Notes under the pieces: generated by a model
Seen by the model: only the letters and a program-made list of their open reading frames with translations
The model's database searches: none
What the model was told of the DNA's origin: nothing
DNA from: a virus
Strand: one strand, 5' to 3'
Length of the DNA stretch: 45,187 nt
Virus record (IMG/VR): IMGVR_UViG_3300032046_000054
Span: 1-45,187 of that record
In this document: one piece after another, positions 32,256 to 45,187 of the stretch
Layout of the letters: each line of letters begins with the position of its first letter
How positions within the stretch are numbered: the first letter of the stretch is position 1
Translations under genes and position numbers: made by a program

Positions 32256-32643
32256 CAAGAGCCTTATAGCACTGGTCACTATCAAACCAGCTAATATGGC
32301 AGTGGTTAGTAGGTATATCCATTTTACCTGCTAGCCGCTTATACGCTTGACTCCTTGTCATATCGCCTTCCTGCCAAAGCCTATTAAAAGCAGGTTTCAC
32401 GTCCTTCCTTGCTTGCCTAGTTTCCTTATCAGCTAATGTACCGAGTGGAACAGTTGTACCTGGATGCACACCAACATAAGCGTCACAACTTGTACAAGAG
32501 TAAGCATATGGCCAACTACCATATGATCTACCATAAATCTCTTTGTTATCAACATATACCACTTTACCTGCACAATACCGACAACGTGTAGGCGTCTCAA
32601 TTATGTCTATCTTAAAGCCGGCTTTGATTAAGGCTTGCTGCAT
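32227..32643 (-). CDS. DUF3268-like zinc-finger protein
   Basis: 138 aa. CRYC (21-24) and CTSC (50-53) form a four-cysteine zinc site, followed by DAYVGVHPGTTVPLGTLADKETRQARK, the signature of DUF3268 phage proteins. ATG 32643 is preferred since GGGAG lies seven bases upstream; ATG 32649 is in frame. Last gene of the leftward early block. Biochemical role unknown. Confidence 0.75.
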   Translation of the reverse strand: MQQALIKAGFKIDIIETPTRCRYCAGKVVYVDNKEIYGRSYGSWPYAYSCTSCDAYVGVHPGTTVPLGTLADKETRQARKDVKPAFNRLWQEGDMTRSQAYKRLAGKMDIPTNHCHISWFDSDQCYKALAIIQAEAQG

Positions 32644-32899
32644 TTTCATTCTCCCAGTCTGCAACAAGCTTAACTAGTTCATTGCGGGCTTTTGCCATGT
32701 TTGCGTAGTAGTTTGATTCAGACCCACACTGAGCGGTAAGCCTGGACGGAATATGTAGAATTTTACAGCCTTGGTTAGTAATAAGCCAAGCAGACCCAAG
32801 GTTATAGGCTGTAAATAGAAAATCACCTTCATGTAGTGCCATTGTAGTATCTCCATAAATCGCCGCTATGGCATTTCTTAAGTTAAGGTAGCTAAGCAC
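32612..32899 (-). CDS. Protein of unknown function (95 aa)
   Basis: GTG 32899 has an excellent AGGAGG site eight bases upstream. An in-frame ATG at 32842 with GGAG is an alternative giving 76 aa. The C-terminal half is helical (NYYANMAKARNELVKLVADWENE). It overlaps the zinc-finger gene. No family recognised. Confidence 0.6.
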   Translation of the reverse strand: MLSYLNLRNAIAAIYGDTTMALHEGDFLFTAYNLGSAWLITNQGCKILHIPSRLTAQCGSESNYYANMAKARNELVKLVADWENENAASLNQSRL

Positions 32900-33038: not shown

Positions 33039-35027
33039 TTATATTGAGTCATATGGAACTTCCTCAGCATCACCCCAGTTTGTACCGCGATCACAAGCAA
33101 CAATAATAGGAACACTTAACCCAGAGATTGCTGTTTCCATGATGTGTCGAATCTCTTTGAATTGCTTATCTGACCAAGCTTCACATGGGTCTGACCAGTC
33201 AAGCTCATCGTGAACAGTGAGTGATGGCATCAAGTCATTGAATAAACCTGCTTCATACGCCTCCACCATACCCTTCTTCATTAAGTCTGCTGCAGAGCCT
33301 TGTAGCAGTCTGTTAACAGCTTTGTGTAGACCTACACGCTCAACACGATTACCCCACTTGGCCACTGCTTCCTCGTAAGGTAGTGGCATTTCATTTCTAC
33401 CTCCCCGTGTGGATGGAACAAACTTTGTAAATCGTGAACGTCTACCCATAACTGTTGCAATGTAGCCTTCACGTCCTGCTTGACCACCGTACTGCTCAAG
33501 TGTTGTCTTAACATACGGTAATGATTCAAAGTATGTTGCGATAAGGCTCTTACCTTCGGCTTCTGACAGACCAAGTGATAAAGCAAGCTTCGCTATACCC
33601 ATTCCGTAAACTAGGCCAAAGTTAATTGTTTTTGCTGGCTTACGCTTAAGTCCAATATGTGTAAGATCATTAATCATATCACAAACAGTCTGATGATAAT
33701 CAGCAAATGGGTCTTTGTTGAATACTGATCTTACGTGATCTGCACCTTGACCTACTGCATAGTGAGCTAAGAAACGATATTCGATAGATGAGTAGTCAAA
33801 TGCTCTCCATCCTGGGTGACCATGATCTGGAACAAAGCAGCCACGTATTAACGGGCCAAGGATAGGGTCACGGGCAGGTAAGTTTTGTAGATTAGGATCA
33901 GAAGAAGCGAATCGTCCTGATACAGTGCCGCCACTGTCACCTTTAAGCGGGTGAAATGAACCATAGACACGTCCATTGACATTTTTGGCAAGAATATAGT
34001 TATCAATAAATGTTGACCGAGCCTTTTGAACCTGCCTAACACGCATAACCTCTTTTGCTAATGGATGTTCTACTGACTTCAAGAAGTCACCAGTAAAGCT
34101 TGGTGCGCCCTTCTCTGTTCTTGGATATTGGATTGCAAACTTATCAAATGCTTTTGCTAAATATGGTCCTGAGTTTATCTTAACATTAAATCCACACTGT
34201 TGATTCAGAATTATCTGATGGTCTCTTTCAATTACAATAAGATCATCATGAGCCTTATTGGCCTTTGCTAAGTCTACCCTTACTGCCTGGTACCGCATAT
34301 CAATAAGTAATGGTATAAGTCGACACTCAAGATCATAGACTTCTAGTAAGCCTTGCCACTCAAGCTGATGGCATTGCCATCGTATAATCTCAAGAGGTAG
34401 TGTTGCATCTGACTCTGCGTAAGCACCGACTAGCTTTGGTGGACAACGCCAGATGTTCTTACGCTGCGTACCGTCTGGCTTACCTCCATAGGCATCTGCA
34501 AGCCATTCATACATCTTAGACGACTCTTTACCAAGTCCTAGATACTTCTGCCCAAGTGCTTCAAGTGCCACAGAAGCTTCTTCATCTATCAGTGCCTCAG
34601 CAAACTGTACATCATGAAGCTTACCTTTGACAAGTACACCTTCCATTCTGAGCCAACCTATATCATAGATTAAGTTAGCTCCAACCTTTACCTGGTGTGG
34701 ACGGCATAGCTGCTCACGTAACCACCTGAATACAACTATTGGGTCAAGGTTATCTTCAGTAGAGATAGAATGGCGTACGGGATAATAACACTTAAACCCA
34801 TCATCAGTAGCAATAGATACACCAACGATATGACCACGACCTCGAGCCCATCCAGGGCCAGCATCCATAAGCTCTGGGTCGTAGGTCTCAGTATCAATTG
34901 CAATTGCCTTCGCTGAAGATAAATCAGGGAAGACAGCACGTGTTTTCCAGCCAGTGCTAGGAATCGCAGGCATTGGTCGACGATTTGGTTTAATACTCTT
35001 CTCATCTTCATCCCAGAATAATCCCAT
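33039..35027 (-). CDS. DNA polymerase, family A, with 3'-5' exonuclease
   Basis: 662 aa. Exonuclease motifs: DTE (Asp45, Glu47), Asp122 in LIYDIGW, and YAESD (Tyr203, Asp207). Polymerase motifs: A, DYSSIE (411-416); B, K466TINF470GLVYG; C, HDE (606-608). No 5'-3' nuclease domain, as in T7 and other phage replicative polymerases. Phe470 occupies the position of E. coli F762. It follows the clamp-like gene by four bases, which suggests joint use at the fork. Confidence 0.95.
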   Translation of the reverse strand: MGLFWDEDEKSIKPNRRPMPAIPSTGWKTRAVFPDLSSAKAIAIDTETYDPELMDAGPGWARGRGHIVGVSIATDDGFKCYYPVRHSISTEDNLDPIVVFRWLREQLCRPHQVKVGANLIYDIGWLRMEGVLVKGKLHDVQFAEALIDEEASVALEALGQKYLGLGKESSKMYEWLADAYGGKPDGTQRKNIWRCPPKLVGAYAESDATLPLEIIRWQCHQLEWQGLLEVYDLECRLIPLLIDMRYQAVRVDLAKANKAHDDLIVIERDHQIILNQQCGFNVKINSGPYLAKAFDKFAIQYPRTEKGAPSFTGDFLKSVEHPLAKEVMRVRQVQKARSTFIDNYILAKNVNGRVYGSFHPLKGDSGGTVSGRFASSDPNLQNLPARDPILGPLIRGCFVPDHGHPGWRAFDYSSIEYRFLAHYAVGQGADHVRSVFNKDPFADYHQTVCDMINDLTHIGLKRKPAKTINFGLVYGMGIAKLALSLGLSEAEGKSLIATYFESLPYVKTTLEQYGGQAGREGYIATVMGRRSRFTKFVPSTRGGRNEMPLPYEEAVAKWGNRVERVGLHKAVNRLLQGSAADLMKKGMVEAYEAGLFNDLMPSLTVHDELDWSDPCEAWSDKQFKEIRHIMETAISGLSVPIIVACDRGTNWGDAEEVPYDSI

Positions 35028-35031
35028 GTTA

Positions 35032-35988
35032 TTAATCCAATTTTAATGCTAAAACAATAGTTCGTTTATCACTCTTAACTGATACAAACTTCTTTGTGTA
35101 AGCAAGTGACACACCTGAAGTATAAAATTGTAGCATAGTTTTCAACTGAAGGGAATGTGTAAATGCGATAATATTACCATCAAATACAATTGTTGCTTCA
35201 CTCGTACCAGCATTGAATGATGCTTTGTTTGGTTTCTCCATATTAAAATGAACACCAGTCTCACCATACGGTTTGATTTGTTCTAATACTTCTAACAATT
35301 CATCGTCAACTGGTGTATATGTTAGTTCAGGAAAGAACGCCTGTAGGTCCGGCCACGCATCGGCAAGCACCGGCGTCTGCATGTAAGAGTTGTCCGCAAA
35401 TGTAAAGGTGAGTATGTTTTTTTCGAAGGCCAAAGCGACCGGCTCACGAGCAAGCCGTGAAAGAACGGTAACACATGCCTTTGATAAGGCAACTTCGAAA
35501 GGCAGTTTAACACCAAGGAGCACTCTGACCATATACTGTGAGTCAGTAGCATAGCCAAAGTCTCCACGTAGTAGTAGCGATGTGCCCCATGACCTCGGCG
35601 CCTCTTCGGGTACAAGCTTGGCGAGCTCTTTAAGCGTTGGAAGTAAGTCACCTGACACCTGTATAAAATGAGTTGGTTGTGGAAGAATTGGTAGTTCACG
35701 ATCAAGAAATAATGGAAGCCAACTCTTAACCCGTCCAGAGGTAATAGTCAAACGTTGCTCTGTTACAGTCAGCTTAACCTTACCTTTTGCTGATGCTGCA
35801 GCTTTAATGAGTGCTTCACCTCCCACGCAGAAGTCTGGTAAGCCTGGTGCCGGTGTGGATAAGAGAACTGATCTGTAATAGCTGTAAGCTACTTCATTAC
35901 GAATAAAAAACATAGAAGCCAGGCCATCAGTACTATCTTTGAGTGGTCTGGCTTGACTGACGATCTTGCGTAGTTCATCTGCTTCCAT
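35032..35988 (-). CDS. Sliding-clamp-like protein (DnaN-like, divergent)
   Basis: 318 aa. No close family is obvious, but the layout follows DNA polymerase beta clamps: a domain ending in ALIKAAASAKGKVKLTVTEQRLTITSGRVKSWLPL, a second with DLLPTLKELAKLVPEE...GTSLLLRGDFGYATDSQYMVRV (short quotes of the pattern), and ADAWPDLQAFFPE, comparable to the FPDY element. This alternation of helix pairs and strands is that of clamp domains. Gene order, directly before DNA polymerase, fits a processivity factor. Translation start 35988 uses a ribosome site set back behind a hairpin (see 35989-36019). Confidence 0.6.
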   Translation of the reverse strand: MEADELRKIVSQARPLKDSTDGLASMFFIRNEVAYSYYRSVLLSTPAPGLPDFCVGGEALIKAAASAKGKVKLTVTEQRLTITSGRVKSWLPLFLDRELPILPQPTHFIQVSGDLLPTLKELAKLVPEEAPRSWGTSLLLRGDFGYATDSQYMVRVLLGVKLPFEVALSKACVTVLSRLAREPVALAFEKNILTFTFADNSYMQTPVLADAWPDLQAFFPELTYTPVDDELLEVLEQIKPYGETGVHFNMEKPNKASFNAGTSEATIVFDGNIIAFTHSLQLKTMLQFYTSGVSLAYTKKFVSVKSDKRTIVLALKLD

Positions 35989-36019
35989 ATTGATTAGAGG
36001 GCCGAAGCCCTCCCTCCTA
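35989..36019 (-). promoter_or_regulatory. Ribosome site separated from the start codon by a UUCG hairpin
   Basis: On the minus strand TAGGAGG (36019-36013) is followed by GAGGGC-TTCG-GCCCTC (36012-35997), then TAATCAAT and ATG 35988. Linear spacing from the Shine-Dalgarno is 24 bases, too long; with the hairpin folded it is 8, ideal. Phage T4 genes 25 and 38 are known to use such folding. Confidence 0.7.
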
Positions 36020-36271
36020 TTAAACTGCTTCGTAGGTAAACTCAAAGATATCAGGTTTGCATGGGTATAGCTCACCCTTTACACCAACGATGATATAGTC
36101 ACCTAAATTACCTTGCATTGTGCCTTCTAACGTATCAATAAATACACGCTTATTGATTGGATCATAAATAACACCATGTAGGTGTTCAGGGTTTGGATGA
36201 GGTCCATCAAATGTTTTGTCAGTAATCTTAATAGCTTCGATAATTACTGGTTTTTTACGGTATTGTTTCAT
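36020..36271 (-). CDS. Conserved phage hypothetical protein (83 aa)
   Basis: KQYRKKPVIIEAIKI at the start and GDYIIVGVKGELYPCKPDIFEFTYE at the end match a very common small phage protein family of unknown role. ATG 36271 lies two bases after the stop codon of the dCMP-type synthase gene; a longer frame from 36289 is less likely. Confidence 0.75.
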   Translation of the reverse strand: MKQYRKKPVIIEAIKITDKTFDGPHPNPEHLHGVIYDPINKRVFIDTLEGTMQGNLGDYIIVGVKGELYPCKPDIFEFTYEAV

Positions 36272-36272
36272 T

Positions 36273-37118
36273 TTACACCGCCATTTCAAATTTGTAGTAA
36301 GGGCCTTGATTTGCTTCTACAGTCCACAAATTGTGAGGTGTAAAAGACTCAAGATCTTTGTGGCCAACCTTCCATGCAATATTCACGTAGTAGGGGTAGT
36401 CCTCCTCTTCCTTATCAAAAGCAAAAGTGTCTTCAAGCATTTGCTCTGCTTGCACAACATGGTTTTCATATACATGAGTATCAGCCATGTTGAAAACCAA
36501 CTCACCGAGGCCTAGCCCAAGGATTTGAGACAACGCTACTTGTAAGAACGCATGGCCAATTAAGTCACTCGGTAAGCCTAGAATCAAGTCCACACTGCGC
36601 ATGTTCACGAGCATTGACAGCTTACCATCTTTAATAAATAACTGGAAACTGTAATAGCAAGGCGGTAAGCACATCTCATCCATTTCTGCAGGATTCCAGC
36701 ATGATACCAAAAGACGACGCGATGTTGGATTGCGCCTAGCTTCTTCAATTACTTCTTGTAGCTGGTCTACACCGTAGAAATCCCGCCATTGTGAACCGTA
36801 TACAGGACCTAAGCTATCATTACATAAATAGCCATTATACTTATTCCATGCCTTAAGGTTTGCATCCCAGAAGTTGCAGCCCCATGACTTCAATACTGCA
36901 TTATCAGTAATACCATTCATAAAGCAGTACATCTCGCCAATGGCACCAGTGATAGCTAGACGACGATGAGTAATAAGTGGAAAGCCTTCAGACCAGTCAT
37001 GTCGAATCTGAGTTGCAAACAACGCACGAGTGCCTACTTTGGTGCGATCCATACGCTTATCACCAAAACCAATAGCACGTTCAGCTAATGCAAGATACTG
37101 CTGTTCGAATTGTTTCAT
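36273..37118 (-). CDS. Thymidylate synthase family enzyme with dCMP-type active site; putative dCMP (hydroxy)methylase
   Basis: 281 aa. Thymidylate synthase fold markers: Glu62, catalytic Cys154 in LPPC, RSVD (174-177), DTHVYENH (His215, Tyr217). The residue that in thymidylate synthase is Asn (GLPFN, E. coli N177) is Asp185 here (GLPSD). Asp at this place is found in T4 dCMP hydroxymethylase, and the N-to-D change is known to switch preference from dUMP to dCMP. The enzyme thus probably makes 5-hydroxymethyl-dCMP (or 5-methyl-dCMP) from dCMP and methylene-tetrahydrofolate. The MazG-like gene overlaps its start (ATGA). Reduction to methyl versus water addition cannot be decided by eye. Confidence 0.8.
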   Translation of the reverse strand: MKQFEQQYLALAERAIGFGDKRMDRTKVGTRALFATQIRHDWSEGFPLITHRRLAITGAIGEMYCFMNGITDNAVLKSWGCNFWDANLKAWNKYNGYLCNDSLGPVYGSQWRDFYGVDQLQEVIEEARRNPTSRRLLVSCWNPAEMDEMCLPPCYYSFQLFIKDGKLSMLVNMRSVDLILGLPSDLIGHAFLQVALSQILGLGLGELVFNMADTHVYENHVVQAEQMLEDTFAFDKEEEDYPYYVNIAWKVGHKDLESFTPHNLWTVEANQGPYYKFEMAV

Positions 37119-37693
37119 AGTGATACTTCCTTCTTAGGATCAAAACCATTTGCAATAAGTACTTTATCAATATTAGGTCCAACCCAACCTGCTGGTTTAA
37201 CAATATCAAAACCATTGCCATACTTGCTTGTTTTTGGGTTGCCACGTTCTTTACGCATATTGGCTTCGTGTACTTCCAGAAACAAGTCCATAAATGGGTA
37301 GCGTAGGTAATAGCAGATACGTCCACACAGATAAAGAACCGAGACAAGGTGCTCTGTATTGATTATCTTATTTTCAATACAAAGTGTTGCAAGCGTACGC
37401 ATTGAGTCTTCTTCAGTGTAGTCGTCTGCGTAGTACACTCGGTTATCTACAAATACTGGCTGTGCTATACCAATCAAATACAATGTACCAATGGCAATGT
37501 ATAGGATATCAACAAGTGCATCTGCACGGTCATGCACAGTCTTTGCGTCAAGAAGCTCTTGACCTTCTTCAGCAAGTCGCTTGATACGCAAGTCAAGCAT
37601 ATCACCTGTTAACTCACGAGGACCGTCAATGTACTGTAGGCCAAACTTAGTGTGGAAGTCATGGATAAGAAGCAATGCGTTAATTGATGACAT
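37115..37693 (-). CDS. MazG-like nucleoside triphosphate pyrophosphohydrolase
   Basis: 192 aa. RIKRLAEEGQELLDA (Glu42, 43, 46) and DALVDILYIAIGTLYLIG (Asp58/62 region) form the all-alpha NTP pyrophosphatase site; VHEANMRKERGNPKTSKYGNG and DIVKPAGWVGP at the end are like phage members of this class. It hydrolyses (d)NTPs to NMPs. Coupled to the dCMP-type synthase, a dCTPase role feeding dCMP to it, as T4 gp56 does, is likely but inferred. Promoter at 37752-37724. Confidence 0.78.
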   Translation of the reverse strand: MSSINALLLIHDFHTKFGLQYIDGPRELTGDMLDLRIKRLAEEGQELLDAKTVHDRADALVDILYIAIGTLYLIGIAQPVFVDNRVYYADDYTEEDSMRTLATLCIENKIINTEHLVSVLYLCGRICYYLRYPFMDLFLEVHEANMRKERGNPKTSKYGNGFDIVKPAGWVGPNIDKVLIANGFDPKKEVSL

Positions 37694-38140: not shown

Positions 38141-38611
38141 TTAGGCTGCAGTTGTTTCATCAGCTTGGGTAGGAGCTGTAGCAGCTTGGGCAGCAGCAAC
38201 TTGCGCCTGGAGTTTAGCCAGTTTATCAGCTGCTTTCTTACCGTCTTCAATCACTTTAGCTGCTTTCTTGTCAGCACGTTCTTGTTCACGCTTTGCCTTG
38301 GCTTCTGCTTTTTCGGCGTCTTTCTTTGCCTTCTCGGTAGAAGCTGCTTTAGCCAGGGTTTTGTTGGTAGCTTTGCGCCAGTAAGTAAGCTGGCTGGAAA
38401 CAGTACCATTTGACATAGTTGTTTCAGCAGTCAACTTGGCGATAACATCGCTTGAAGTCTTACCTGATTCAACAGCCAAGTCAGCTGTGTCCCAAACCAT
38501 ACGAGCACCAGTGCCAGCAGCTGGGTAAAGAACGCCACCAACTTCTTCTTTGGTTTGACGTGATACTTGGATCTTGTGGGTAGCTTGCTCGGTAACTTGT
38601 TCTTGTGACAT
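38141..38611 (-). CDS. Protein with Lys/Ala-rich coiled coil, possible DNA-binding (156 aa)
   Basis: GGAG before ATG 38611 and its own promoter at 38682. The N-terminal 75 residues (LYPAAGTGARMVWDTADL...TMSNGTVSSQLTYWRKAT) resemble phage/plasmid proteins with a winged or AraC-like small helical domain in which TVSSQLTYWRK is a recognition-type helix. Residues 80-135 are a charged coiled coil (KKDAEKAEAKAKREQERADKK). The end is Ala/Thr rich. Probably oligomeric; function unknown. The structured RNA region forms its 3' neighbour. Confidence 0.65.
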   Translation of the reverse strand: MSQEQVTEQATHKIQVSRQTKEEVGGVLYPAAGTGARMVWDTADLAVESGKTSSDVIAKLTAETTMSNGTVSSQLTYWRKATNKTLAKAASTEKAKKDAEKAEAKAKREQERADKKAAKVIEDGKKAADKLAKLQAQVAAAQAATAPTQADETTAA

Positions 38612-38653
38612 TTGTTGCTCCAGTATTTAGTGAGGTATTTAAGTAATGAATTC

Positions 38654-38682
38654 ATTATACACAAGAACACTTCCTACGTAAA
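38654..38682 (-). promoter_or_regulatory. Promoter of the 38141-38611 gene
   Basis: Minus strand TTTACG (38682-38677), 17-bp spacer, TATAAT (38659-38654), then GAATTCATTAC. It shares TATAATGAA with several other promoters in the window. Confidence 0.75.
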
Positions 38683-38716
38683 ATCTATTTTATTGGTTTT
38701 GTACCGATACCAACTG

Positions 38717-38902
38717 TTAAAATGGTATATTCATTTCGAAGTTTTCACAACCCGATAATACAACCTTCATTGGTGGCTGAGCCTCAAATAGATCACACTT
38801 TGACAGTACTAGATTAGCGTGCATGCAATTACCACAGTTCTTAATAATTGTATACCTTAGCTCATCGATAAGTTCTAGGCTAGTCAACGTCTGTTGTGAC
38901 AT
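38717..38902 (-). CDS. Small four-cysteine protein (61 aa)
   Basis: Cys23, Cys26, Cys36 and Cys52 (NCGNCMHA...SKCDLF...SGCENFE) suggest a zinc or iron-sulphur site. A similar Cys pattern ends the exonuclease encoded at 40613-41515 (NCRTCKY...WLCDI...KPCINYE). Its start overlaps the helicase stop by 23 bases. Possibly an accessory subunit; no function known. Confidence 0.65.
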   Translation of the reverse strand: MSQQTLTSLELIDELRYTIIKNCGNCMHANLVLSKCDLFEAQPPMKVVLSGCENFEMNIPF

Positions 38903-40616
38903 TGGTCTCTTCCTCTTTGTAGATAACTTTCAAAATTTGTGGTACACCTTTGCCACCTCTTGGGCCTTTCTTCATCCACACACGGAGTATCCTAGGTGTA
39001 GACAGTTCAGCTTTACGAAGTAAGAACTCTACACAAGTCTTTGGTACTGTTCCAATGGCGTCAGTTGCGCTGTTCCACCAGTCTATTGCTAAGCCTCTAG
39101 CTGCACCAGTATGCTCAATGTTGATCCATTGCGCAAAGAATCGTAACCCAACAGAGTACACCGCCTTAATAGAGCTTGGTCTACCTGGCTTAGAGTATAA
39201 ACTGTAAGTAGTGAAGTCTACTTCAAGCTCCTCTATTATCGGTGTGGAGTCAACAATAATATCTTGAACCGATGCACCTGACTCGATCTTAAGTTCTGGG
39301 TCTGGGAATATGTAATCGCAAGGTGTCTCGTCCTCACGTATTCCAGTACAGTTAAGCACACGTGCGTAGTTGTACCCATTACATTTAGGACACTTCTTCA
39401 TTGGAGGAGGTGCACCACCGCCGCCCTTCTTTTTAGGATCAGGTAAATGTGGATCATTGATAGGGCCAAGTCTTAGCGTGTTATCACCAAAGTCAAGTAC
39501 TAAACAGTTTTGCTTAACAGATGCAGCTATAGCAGCCAATCGCCCAGCTTTCGTCGATACATCGTAGCCAAGCGCAAACAAAGGTCTGGTACCACGGCCA
39601 AGCATCTGAATCCAAAGGACGTTGCTACGAGTAATACGAAGCATACCAATAAGATCAATTCCAGGGCAATCATAGCCAGTAGTAAGAATACCGTTGTTAA
39701 CCATAGCACGATACTCACTAGCCTCAAACTTCGCAAGTTCTTCATCCCTGCTTCCTAACATTTTAGAGTGAATACAACCAGTCGGAATACCTCTGGCTCT
39801 CAAGCAAGCGGCTACATGTTCTGCATGCTCAATGCCTGATGCAAAGATAAGCCACTTCTTTCTATCCTTGCCCTTCTCAATAATCTCATCCACACAGGCA
39901 ATCGTGATATGATCTTTATCAAAAAGCTCTTGCATGTCACCAAGGTTATACTCGCCTGCAGTGATACGTACACCTTCATCAGAGACAGTAGTATTCGTTG
40001 CTTTAGCAATTACTGGTGCCAAGTACCCATCTGAGATAAACTGAACAAAGCGCTCAGCCTGTGTGGCATCATAAGCTATATGATTAAACAACCCATGGTT
40101 TATCAGCATACCACCTTTCGACCGGAAAGGAGTAGCAGTTAAACCGATAACAACCATCTTTGGGTTTGCTTTCCGAAGAATGTCGATAGTCTTACGATAG
40201 CCGGACTCAGAGCTTGCAGGAATCATGTGAGCTTCGTCTACTAGCACTACACAAGGATTCTTAATTAAGTGAGCCACAGAAACAAATGACTGAATACCTG
40301 CTACAATAACTTGGCCGGATAGGTCCTTACTTCCTGCACCATCAGAGTAAATAGATAAACGAACTTGTGGCCATACCCATCTAATAGACGCAGCATCATT
40401 AATAACAAGTTCTTTGACATGTGTCAATACAATAACTGTACCTGTATCTGGCCAGTTTGTATAAATATCTTTAATAATCATACCAAGCAGACTAGCTTTT
40501 CCAGTGCCAGTAGGTAAGCAAATAAGTGGATCAATCCGCTGAGTCTCTGCAAACGACGACCATAAACTACTGACTGCTTCTATTTGGTAATCACGAGGTA
40601 TAAATGGCTTACTCAT
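38880..40616 (-). CDS. SF2 DNA helicase (UvsW/SSL2-like)
   Basis: 578 aa. Walker A region LPTGTGKAS (34-42), DEAH box VVLVDEAH (123-130), GLTATP (158-163), NGILTTGYDCPGID and QMLGRGTRP (motif VI). A zinc finger with CPKC and two further Cys lies near 396-425, then a unique C-terminal domain. Such helicases remodel forks and recombination intermediates. The usual Ser/Thr after the P-loop Lys is Ala41 here, with Ser42 next. Overlaps the exonuclease gene by four bases. Confidence 0.88.
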   Translation of the reverse strand: MSKPFIPRDYQIEAVSSLWSSFAETQRIDPLICLPTGTGKASLLGMIIKDIYTNWPDTGTVIVLTHVKELVINDAASIRWVWPQVRLSIYSDGAGSKDLSGQVIVAGIQSFVSVAHLIKNPCVVLVDEAHMIPASSESGYRKTIDILRKANPKMVVIGLTATPFRSKGGMLINHGLFNHIAYDATQAERFVQFISDGYLAPVIAKATNTTVSDEGVRITAGEYNLGDMQELFDKDHITIACVDEIIEKGKDRKKWLIFASGIEHAEHVAACLRARGIPTGCIHSKMLGSRDEELAKFEASEYRAMVNNGILTTGYDCPGIDLIGMLRITRSNVLWIQMLGRGTRPLFALGYDVSTKAGRLAAIAASVKQNCLVLDFGDNTLRLGPINDPHLPDPKKKGGGGAPPPMKKCPKCNGYNYARVLNCTGIREDETPCDYIFPDPELKIESGASVQDIIVDSTPIIEELEVDFTTYSLYSKPGRPSSIKAVYSVGLRFFAQWINIEHTGAARGLAIDWWNSATDAIGTVPKTCVEFLLRKAELSTPRILRVWMKKGPRGGKGVPQILKVIYKEEETNVTTDVD

Positions 40617-41515
40617 TTCAACACCAAGTTGATCTTAATATCCTTAGGTCGAATAAATATTGTATGTTTTTCATAGTTAATACACGGCTTCTGTGTGTTA
40701 GGTATAAGTTCAGCAGGTAAAAGCTCTTCACCACCAATATCGCATAACCAAGTTGCTTCATTACCTGGTCGGGAATACTTACATGTACGGCAGTTTGTGT
40801 GAGGTTCATCACCTTTGTGAAAGCACAATGACCGGTAATCGCAAAAGCGACACTCAAAGTAAGCACTTGAATCACTTACACGATCAGGAATATGGTCGCC
40901 AAATACAATCTCATCCGCATTGGCAATGTACTTCATAGCTAACTCATCGTCTGCATGAACCCATTCAGTCCAAATCTCATCAGTATTCTTATTTACAGCC
41001 ATGTATAGGCAATGCTTAAGATTGAACTTATACATATAGATAATCATTTGAATAAAGTGCACTGGCTTAGCCTTTTCTACACCACCCTTTAGAAGTAGCG
41101 TGAATGACTTATCACCGTGAGTCTTATACTCTGACAATACCCATTCATTAGGATATTCAGGAAAGCCAATACCCATACCATCACATGAACCACCACCATG
41201 ACCACCAGCAAAGTTAGTTCTAAACTGTTTACCAGTTTCTGGGTGTACGTCATGGAACTCAATACCAATACTACGAAGCATATTTGAAAAGCGTGGCTCT
41301 TCTAGGTGACCACGATTAAACAAACGAATAATACGGGCTTCATGCTTGATGAGCTTTGAGTGGCGGAAGTTAAACCACATCTGACGCTTACACGACCCAC
41401 CTAAAACAGAAGCGCCAATATGATTACGAAAACCTGATTCTTCAGGATGCAGTAAGTCAACAGCTTGACGCTTCTCTTGAAGTTCTTCAAACATTGTTTG
41501 TGTGAGTGTTGTCAA
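40613..41515 (-). CDS. PD-(D/E)XK exonuclease, Cas4/RecB-like
   Basis: 300 aa. GASVLGGSCKRQMWFNF (Cys42) at the N-terminus, RGHLEE, Asp112 in SCDGMG, Glu129-x-Lys131 in LSEYKT and Gln156 (HFIQMIIYMY) form the nuclease core. ECRFCDYRSLC (Cys222, 225, 231) with Cys42 suggests a 4Fe-4S cluster as in Cas4/AddB-type enzymes. A second Cys set follows (242, 245, 258, 278). Alone, without other cas genes, it is most likely a recombination exonuclease acting with the Sak4-like protein. Promoter at 41569-41541. Confidence 0.83.
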   Translation of the reverse strand: MTTLTQTMFEELQEKRQAVDLLHPEESGFRNHIGASVLGGSCKRQMWFNFRHSKLIKHEARIIRLFNRGHLEEPRFSNMLRSIGIEFHDVHPETGKQFRTNFAGGHGGGSCDGMGIGFPEYPNEWVLSEYKTHGDKSFTLLLKGGVEKAKPVHFIQMIIYMYKFNLKHCLYMAVNKNTDEIWTEWVHADDELAMKYIANADEIVFGDHIPDRVSDSSAYFECRFCDYRSLCFHKGDEPHTNCRTCKYSRPGNEATWLCDIGGEELLPAELIPNTQKPCINYEKHTIFIRPKDIKINLVLK

Positions 41516-41540: not shown

Positions 41541-41569
41541 TTATACCGTAACGAAGTGAACCTGTATAC
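41541..41569 (-). promoter_or_regulatory. Promoter of the exonuclease-helicase pair
   Basis: Minus strand TATACA (41569-41564), 17-bp spacer, TATAAT (41546-41541). It lies within the end of the dCMP deaminase gene, its -10 box covering the stop codon. Confidence 0.65.
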
Positions 41570-41975
41570 CATTATTTTCTAGGTACGACAATGCTTCCAA
41601 TTGAGAGTCATACCACTTACTTGCGGTAGCTGCAGGCGGACAAAACAAGTGGCAGATATTAGCGGAGTTATACTTAGCACTTACTATCTTCCTGGCGCAG
41701 TCCATGCAAGGTGGCTTGGTGATAAATATTGAGCCATTATGTACATGTCCACACCGAGCCAAGGCATTGTCTTCTGCATGGATAATGAAGTTATTCTTAT
41801 GTACTGACTCAAATATACGTGCGTCGTCTTTGTAGTGAGCTGGTCCGTTGTAGCCCATACCACGAACTTCTTTCTCTTCGCTGATGACACAGCCAACCTG
41901 TGTGGAGTCTTTACTCCAGGTGGCAACCTCAGCTGCAAGCTTCATAAAGCGGCTAATCCATTTAGCTTCTAACAT
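41541..41975 (-). CDS. dCMP deaminase
   Basis: 144 aa. Zinc-dependent cytidine/deoxycytidylate deaminase core: HAED (His66, Glu68) and PPCMDC (Cys90, Cys93). It converts dCMP to dUMP for dTMP synthesis. No separate dUMP-type thymidylate synthase is seen in the window, so dUMP would go to the host enzyme, while the synthase here appears to use dCMP. GGAG before ATG. A UUCG hairpin separates it from the SSB-like gene upstream. Confidence 0.88.
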   Translation of the reverse strand: MLEAKWISRFMKLAAEVATWSKDSTQVGCVISEEKEVRGMGYNGPAHYKDDARIFESVHKNNFIIHAEDNALARCGHVHNGSIFITKPPCMDCARKIVSAKYNSANICHLFCPPAATASKWYDSQLEALSYLENNGIQVHFVTV

Positions 41976-44289: not shown

Positions 44290-44713
44290 TTTCGTCAACC
44301 TCTACTGTAAATTTTAGGGTAGGTGTAGCTGGTTTAGCGATGAGTGCATCGTTGATGGCTTCACGGCTCTCTTCTGGTAGCTTCTTATGACCAGTCGCTG
44401 AATAAGTAATCTTAGCAGGAAAGGCTGAATCATAGTAGCCATTACCAAGCTTATCACCATAAATCTCTACAAGCTGCGCACGAACACCTTCAAGACCTGC
44501 TTCGTAAATAGTAATATTGGTTTTAGCTGTTGCTTCAACTTTATACCCATGAGTACGGAAAGTAGACGAGCCATTGCGCTTAGCAAGCTTTAAGTCAGCT
44601 AACAGCCCAAACAAAGCTAAACGTAAAGTCATCTCACGGGCTGCTGCGCGTTTTGACACAAGCTGCGCATCAATAAATTCTTGAATGCTGACTGCTAGCT
44701 TTGCATCGCTCAT
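44279..44713 (-). CDS. Protein of unknown function (144 aa)
   Basis: ATG 44713 (AGG upstream) overlaps the kinase stop (ATGA). Helical N-terminus (LAVSIQEFIDAQLVSKRAAAREM), then RTHGYKVEATAKTNITIYEAGL and an acidic end (VEVDENED). It precedes the Sak4-like gene with overlap. No family recognised; perhaps an early recombination accessory protein. Confidence 0.65.
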   Translation of the reverse strand: MSDAKLAVSIQEFIDAQLVSKRAAAREMTLRLALFGLLADLKLAKRNGSSTFRTHGYKVEATAKTNITIYEAGLEGVRAQLVEIYGDKLGNGYYDSAFPAKITYSATGHKKLPEESREAINDALIAKPATPTLKFTVEVDENED

Positions 44714-45187
44714 AGTGCTACCTGTGTATGAAGCCATTCAACTGCATTATCAATTGAGTGAATTGTATAATCAAATACAACAACTTTGTCATTACCAATT
44801 TGTGCTTTTGCAAAGTAGCTATAAAGTCTATATAGCTCGTCACGACGTTCAACTACACCAGCCATTTCTTCACGAGCTGGATCAACGTTACACACGACTT
44901 CAGGCGGAGGTAAACAAATAATTACTGGGATACTAGACAACGTATAGTCAACAAACAAAGCAAGCTCAACCCCTCTAATAATTTTACTACGGTTAAGGAG
45001 TTTGTCGTAAATGAGCTGGCTAATCGCCATAGAGCGATCATAGATTGTATGCTGAGAATGTTGCTCAGCCATATAGCCAAGCATAAAATCTTTACCGTCT
45101 ATTGGTTTAATTTGATGCTGAACTGGCATGTTTAAACGTTTAGACAAAGCTGCTGCGAGTGTTGTCTTTCCAGCGTTGTCAGGGCCT
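44710..45187 (-). CDS. Deoxynucleoside monophosphate kinase-like protein, main part
   Basis: The gene runs off the right edge and continues at 174-1 through the terminal repeat. Visible parts: P-loop strand, DRS in TIYDRSMAISQLIYDKLL, which fits the DR(Y/S) element of thymidylate kinases, VIICLPPPEV strand and a C-terminal HSIDNAVEWL helix. First gene of the long recombination/replication string after the promoter at 227-199. See the entry at 1-174 for function. Confidence 0.75.
   Translation of the reverse strand, partial: GPDNAGKTTLAAALSKRLNMPVQHQIKPIDGKDFMLGYMAEQHSQHTIYDRSMAISQLIYDKLLNRSKIIRGVELALFVDYTLSSIPVIICLPPPEVVCNVDPAREEMAGVVERRDELYRLYSYFAKAQIGNDKVVVFDYTIHSIDNAVEWLHTQVAL
45037..45187. 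repeat. Terminal redundancy, right copy
   Basis: Copy of bases 1-151 with one mismatch (T at 45061 for C at 25). Confidence 0.93.

Follow-up and report, generated by a model that had tools for sequence, protein, structure and literature searches.

Positions 36273-37693 of the viral record IMG/VR IMGVR_UViG_3300032046_000054 (1-45,187; the whole 45,187 bp are referred to below as the window) hold two genes on the minus strand, exactly where an initial annotation had placed a thymidylate synthase (TS) homologue and a pyrophosphatase. The first (36273-37118, 281 aa; PF00303, E=1.8e-63) encodes a TS-family enzyme and predicted dCMP methylase, and the second, upstream of it (37115-37693, 192 aa; PF01503 PRA-PH, E=1.4e-6), a DR2231-type all-alpha (d)NTP pyrophosphatase and presumed dCTPase. 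Their stop and start codons share a 4-nt ATGA (37115-37118, minus strand), read directly in the sequence. This overlap, like which the corresponding genes of Stenotrophomonas phage AXL1 and Salmonella phage S144 also overlap, bears out the arrangement first described, and the translational coupling stated at the time is our reading of it.

The pair belongs to a replication operon encoded throughout on the minus strand. Adjacent to it are genes for a PolA-type DNA polymerase and a clamp-like protein (33039-36075; PF00476, 8.2e-60; phrog_947, 1.2e-32), and the rest of the operon comprises a phrog_28664 protein, a helicase and a Cas4-domain exonuclease (38141-41515) as well as a dCMP deaminase (41541-41975; PF00383, 7.7e-13; phrog_174, 9.4e-25). 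The deaminase had been proposed as a partner of the pair, as had a dNMP kinase, and both are present. The gene of the latter, which is thymidylate-kinase-like, is split by the contig ends, its larger part lying at 44710-45187 and its 5' part, matching kinase residues 1-58, at 1-174, both on the minus strand; once the ends are joined, its product is a P-loop protein of 166 aa that matches the thymidylate kinase family phrog_761 (8.8e-17). A search of the window for dihydrofolate reductase (DHFR) found none.

The first 151 bp of the window recur at its end (1-151 and 45037-45187) with a single mismatch (position 25, C/T). This terminal repeat makes it probable that the whole genome, ~45 kb long, has been recovered and was read across its ends. 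Tail sheath and baseplate proteins are encoded, which identifies the phage as a myovirus. Megablast against named phages returned no close DNA relatives, and a search of bacterial and archaeal genomes for a close relative was likewise negative. Elsewhere on the minus strand, a possible phage transcription regulator of 119 aa contains a LytTR domain for DNA binding (200-559; PF04397, 9.3e-17), and a small ORF (32612-32899) matches a phage family of peptide chain release factors with an RF-1 domain (phrog_20323, 5.6e-7).

Membership of the first protein in the PF00303 superfamily is evident from its fold and from the catalytic Cys, Arg, Tyr and Glu, all of which are present. Its AlphaFold model (pLDDT 86) adopts the TS fold (Z 32), with cellular TSs as nearest neighbours. 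We aligned it with E. coli ThyA, T4-like td, T4 gp42, AXL1 and other sequences. Retained catalytic residues, in window numbering, include Cys154, Glu62, Trp84, Tyr107, Arg174, Asp177 and His215/Tyr217. The pyrimidine site, however, departs from that of ThyA at three positions. Firstly, Asp185 (codon GAC) aligns with Asp179 of gp42 and stands where ThyA has Asn177 and T4-like td also has Asn, as had been noted from the sequence alone. Secondly, Tyr155 replaces ThyA His147 (H147Y). Thirdly, Met173 replaces ThyA Gln165 (Q165M) and sits in a VNMRS motif identical to that of gp42. The first of these changes, N177D (N229D in L. casei), is enough to make TS methylate dCMP (Liu & Santi 1992; Hardy & Nalivaika 1992, both as cited in PMC8670742). 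In the metagenomic association study MetaGPA, no TS positions told phage contigs with modified cytosine from unmodified ones better than 177 and 147, and TS was accompanied there by PRA-PH pyrophosphatases (PF01503) and by dCMP deaminases (PMC8670742). By its Asp at the Asn177 position, the window enzyme is predicted to use dCMP, and the enzyme class to which it belongs is already known.

The second protein scored 29 bits against PF01503 (cut-off 21.3), and its family profile matched both DR2231 (E=9.5e-18) and the solved NTP pyrophosphatase 3nl9 (4.9e-14). E43, E46 and D62 of the acidic metal-binding motif are invariant and E42 and D58 nearly so; a tail of the form NM-K...KPxGW is also common to DR2231, which differs in being a cellular enzyme and in lacking the helical insertion of the phage protein. 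Homology and motif together support the earlier description of an all-alpha NTP pyrophosphatase, here of DR2231-like kind. The best structural matches of the model (pLDDT 88) were dimeric dUTPases (Z 11.6), followed by DR2231 (Z 5.8), values that are modest for a helical protein; at E<=0.001, Foldseek returned no hit, and it was the profile comparison that placed the protein. As DR2231-like enzymes hydrolyse dUTP among other dNTPs (PMC5122711), dCTPase activity is suggested by genomic context only, and hydrolysis specific to dCTP is presumed. Against the family profile, a single T4 gp56 sequence gave no detectable similarity (hhalign probability 0.1, E 0.56); the phage protein may work like gp56.

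We gauged how regularly such enzymes are paired by scanning viral contigs with TS motifs only and retaining the best 80 TS loci by similarity to the window enzyme, or 72 after removal of near-duplicates. Pairing was scored where a pyrophosphatase of the window family occurred within the fetched flank of the TS locus. Such a neighbour accompanied 8/8 TSs in which Asp177 is combined with any residue but Gln at position 165 (ThyA numbering), as against 3/64 of the others (Fisher p=1.4e-8), where the eight represent about four lineages and are not phylogenetically independent. For Asp177 alone the corresponding counts, likewise not independent of descent, were 8/25 and 3/47 (p=0.012). The weakness of Asp177 as a marker is due to 17 distinct phage TSs in this sample, forming one clade, which carry D177/H147/Q165 and invariably lack a pyrophosphatase neighbour; on its own, the residue is not decisive. 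That clade (loci L034, L037, L038, L040, L041, L044, L046-L051, L053, L058, L061, L070, L105 and L109) is well supported and mostly features LSVG/LNVG-type tails. In Vibrio phage BX-1 (Ackermannviridae; L014), a TS with Asp177/Pro147/Gln165 adjoins a pyrophosphatase of the window family, and a deaminase-like gene and one for DHFR lie close by. The Ackermannviridae are better known for modified thymine.

In the TS tree, the window enzyme falls in a clade of nine sequences with Asp, Tyr and Met at positions 177, 147 and 165 (D/Y/M; support 98/83), and its sister group is a clade of D/F/M enzymes (98/97). Neither T4 gp42 nor the Xp12-type enzymes join these clades, though their long branches leave the exact placement unsure. 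These results bear on one alternative, namely that the window encodes an ordinary dUMP-using TS with a dUTPase partner and that Asp185 is neutral. The cellular TSs and dimeric dUTPases nearest to the two models would suit such an arrangement, as would the existence of the D177/H147/Q165 clade with its missing pyrophosphatase neighbours. However, N177D shifts TS preference from dUMP to dCMP (PMC8670742), two further substrate-site residues are altered, and Asp is invariant in 9/9 members of the window clade, at 36-73% identity to the window enzyme. We therefore regard an ordinary TS as highly improbable.

Cultured relatives extend these observations to phages with studied DNA. The order of PolA, clamp, TS, pyrophosphatase, helicase, Cas4-type exonuclease and dCMP deaminase is syntenic in S144 (Loughboroughvirus) and in Erwinia phage RF1, and also in Rosemountvirus rivia, where the fetched stretch ends short of the deaminase. 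Operon proteins of these three phages are mostly 31-51% identical to those of the window; in S144 the values are 42% for the TS, 33% for the pyrophosphatase, 38% for the helicase, 37% for the exonuclease and 69% for the phrog_28664 protein, compared with 25% for the capsid protein. All three TSs display D177/Y147/M165 and a C-terminal MAV tail, as does the window enzyme. The same operon was found in Escherichia phage fHy-Eco03 (Rosemountvirus), the TS of which has the D/Y/M residues, and homologues of the kinase occur in S144, fHy-Eco03, rivia, RF1 and BX-1. According to its annotation, the fHy-Eco03 record (L113) has both proteins of the pair, TS and pyrophosphatase, among those that LC-MS/MS detected in virion preparations, which may reflect either carry-over or packaging.

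The DNA of two of these relatives resists cleavage at nearly every restriction site that contains GC. That of S144 was uncut by five enzymes with such sites, XhoI, EheI, Bsp120I, Cfr42I and SspDI, with 2-5 sites for each and lambda controls cut, while SspI and PacI cleaved it; its authors suspected a cytosine modification but named no gene, ORF63 being the sole candidate (PMC7432712). Only one of 10 enzymes, ScaI, cut fHy-Eco03 DNA, a result left unexplained (PMC8145870). Neither the window nor rivia nor fHy-Eco03 has ORF63, and we reject it as the modification gene because fHy-Eco03 does not share it. Searches for a C5 DNA methylase (PF00145) in S144, rivia, RF1 and the window, and for QueC of the deazaguanine route in these four and AXL1, were negative. 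With ORF63 unshared and both of these absent, the TS/pyrophosphatase pair is the best shared candidate, and shared gene content makes it a possible cause of the resistance of S144 and fHy-Eco03. Slight avoidance of 4-mer palindromes was common to window, T4 and S144 pieces, and restriction-site avoidance is therefore uninformative.

Two alternatives would detach the gene pair from this resistance. In one, another modification such as a deazaguanine protects S144 and fHy-Eco03 and has no bearing on the pair. The GC-containing sites hold guanine too, and phage 9g, in whose vicinity S144 has been classified, contains dG+; the missing QueC and PF00145 genes in the phages searched speak against this possibility, which we consider distinctly improbable. 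In the other, the pair supplies thymidylate and leaves the DNA unmodified, either because methylated dCMP is converted to dTMP by deamination, or because pyrophosphatase and deaminase provide dUMP for host ThyA. A dCMP deaminase does lie in the same operon, and a new thymidylate biosynthesis is reported for Xp12-infected cells (Kuo et al. 1982, as cited in PMC11946847). Under such a scheme, however, the restriction resistance of S144 and fHy-Eco03 would need another cause, and a plain N177 TS would be a simpler way to the same end; it appears improbable.

Whether the product would be methylated or hydroxymethylated is a further concern. A dCMP hydroxymethylase in the manner of T4 gp42 would yield 5-hydroxymethylcytosine (5hmC) DNA, bare or decorated by an unrecognised enzyme. 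Asp185 and VNMRS are common to gp42, Asn87 occupies the position of E. coli Trp83 in place of Trp, and the presence of a pyrophosphatase and a kinase recalls the roles of gp56 and gp1 in dCTP removal and phosphorylation. The ternary structure of gp42, however, defines a hydroxymethylase signature: an Asp/Glu three residues before the catalytic Cys (Cys-3) that activates water, together with a Ser/Thr at the second position ahead of the catalytic Tyr; gp42 is also devoid of the TS tail that seals the active site (PMC6400193). At Cys-3, the Asp of gp42 is replaced in the window enzyme by Leu151 (ahead of C154), as in TS; Pro-Val-Tyr107 stands in place of Ser-Asn-Tyr; and its TS-type MAV tail is kept throughout its clade. 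It thus fails as a T4-type hydroxymethylase, which hydrates the methylene, and fits hydride transfer. The Xp12-type TSs have neither the MAV tail nor Leu (Asn is found at Cys-3), so that these features are not required of a methylase and argue only by analogy to TS.

Evidence independent of the residue signature comes from ScaI, which cuts fHy-Eco03 DNA, whereas T4gt 5hmC DNA is fully resistant to it (PMC7653180). KpnI, which has the GTAC core in common with ScaI, cuts the 5-methylcytosine (5mC) DNA of Xp12. The beta-glucosyltransferase family of T4 (PF09198) was not found in the window with T4 as positive control, nor was any glucosyltransferase seen among the scanned window ORFs, in agreement with the initial annotation, and the carbamoyltransferase partner reported in MetaGPA was also looked for and absent. 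Lack of both partners is as expected for 5mC, and the missing hydroxymethylase signature would explain why no glucosyltransferase is needed. From the signature residues, we infer addition of hydride rather than water; a gp42-type hydroxymethylase is, in our estimation, unlikely.

A close functional parallel to a dCMP methylase is offered by Xp12, the genome of which contains 100% 5mC. Xp12 (MT664984) and Bosa were compared via relatives, chiefly AXL1. In this Xp12/Bosavirus module the pyrophosphatase and TS genes overlap, as in the window, a dCMP deaminase gene follows, and the TS likewise combines Asp177 with a residue other than His at 147. Unlike the window, Xp12-type phages also encode DHFR, in the order pyrophosphatase-TS-deaminase-DHFR. 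The AXL1-type TS, moreover, is of a separate lineage (30% identity) with Pro147/Leu165.

A mechanism may be outlined in which the gene pair replaces cytosine at the nucleotide level, although each catalytic step, the identity of the base and the extent of replacement are deduced from the comparisons above. The pyrophosphatase would hydrolyse dCTP, and probably dUTP, to monophosphates, so that the polymerase runs short of ordinary dCTP and the coupled TS homologue is supplied with dCMP. There, Asp185 would recognise and protonate N3 of cytosine and, with Cys154, allow the one-carbon unit of methylene-tetrahydrofolate to be transferred to C5. Since both the Leu that TS has at Cys-3 and the C-terminal tail that closes the site are retained, the methylene would be reduced by hydride and not hydrated, giving 5-methyl-dCMP and releasing dihydrofolate for host DHFR. 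The phage dNMP kinase would begin conversion to 5-methyl-dCTP, from which the phage polymerase would make restriction-resistant 5mC DNA, such resistance itself having been seen in the relatives. The dCMP deaminase, retained in the S144 and RF1 operons, may channel dCMP into dTMP formation, or possibly 5-methyl-dCMP, for which there is a report in Xp12.

A TS homologue predicted to act on cytosine nucleotides and coupled to a pyrophosphatase makes it likely that the window phage carries modified cytosine of some kind. The initial annotation had suggested hydroxymethyl- or methyl-dCTP by analogy with T4; its core of a dCMP-type synthase and a pyrophosphatase is strengthened by H147Y, Q165M, the pairing statistic, MetaGPA and the resistance of the relatives, whereas its gp42-like hydroxymethyl arm lost ground with the absent signature. 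Our preferred reading, to which we assign a probability of about 0.6, is that a dCMP methylase and a presumed dCTP-removing pyrophosphatase give rise to 5mC DNA in the manner of Xp12. The odds appear even that the enzyme, with its full TS tail and D177/Y147/M165, is a third, separately evolved, dCMP-methylating type of phage cytosine-replacing enzyme, founding a previously unrecognised 5mC group of Rosemountvirus/Loughboroughvirus-type Salmonella, Escherichia and Erwinia phages together with the uncultured window myovirus.

For metagenomic TS genes, the combination of Asp177 with a non-Gln residue at 165 marks the pyrophosphatase-paired kind in this sample, which Asp177 alone does not. The added value of the analysis lies in its link to two orphan reports of restriction resistance and in a concrete prediction of the base: S144 and fHy-Eco03, whose resistance had neither a chemical nor a genetic explanation, now have a named two-gene candidate, and the base it would place in their DNA is predicted to be 5mC.
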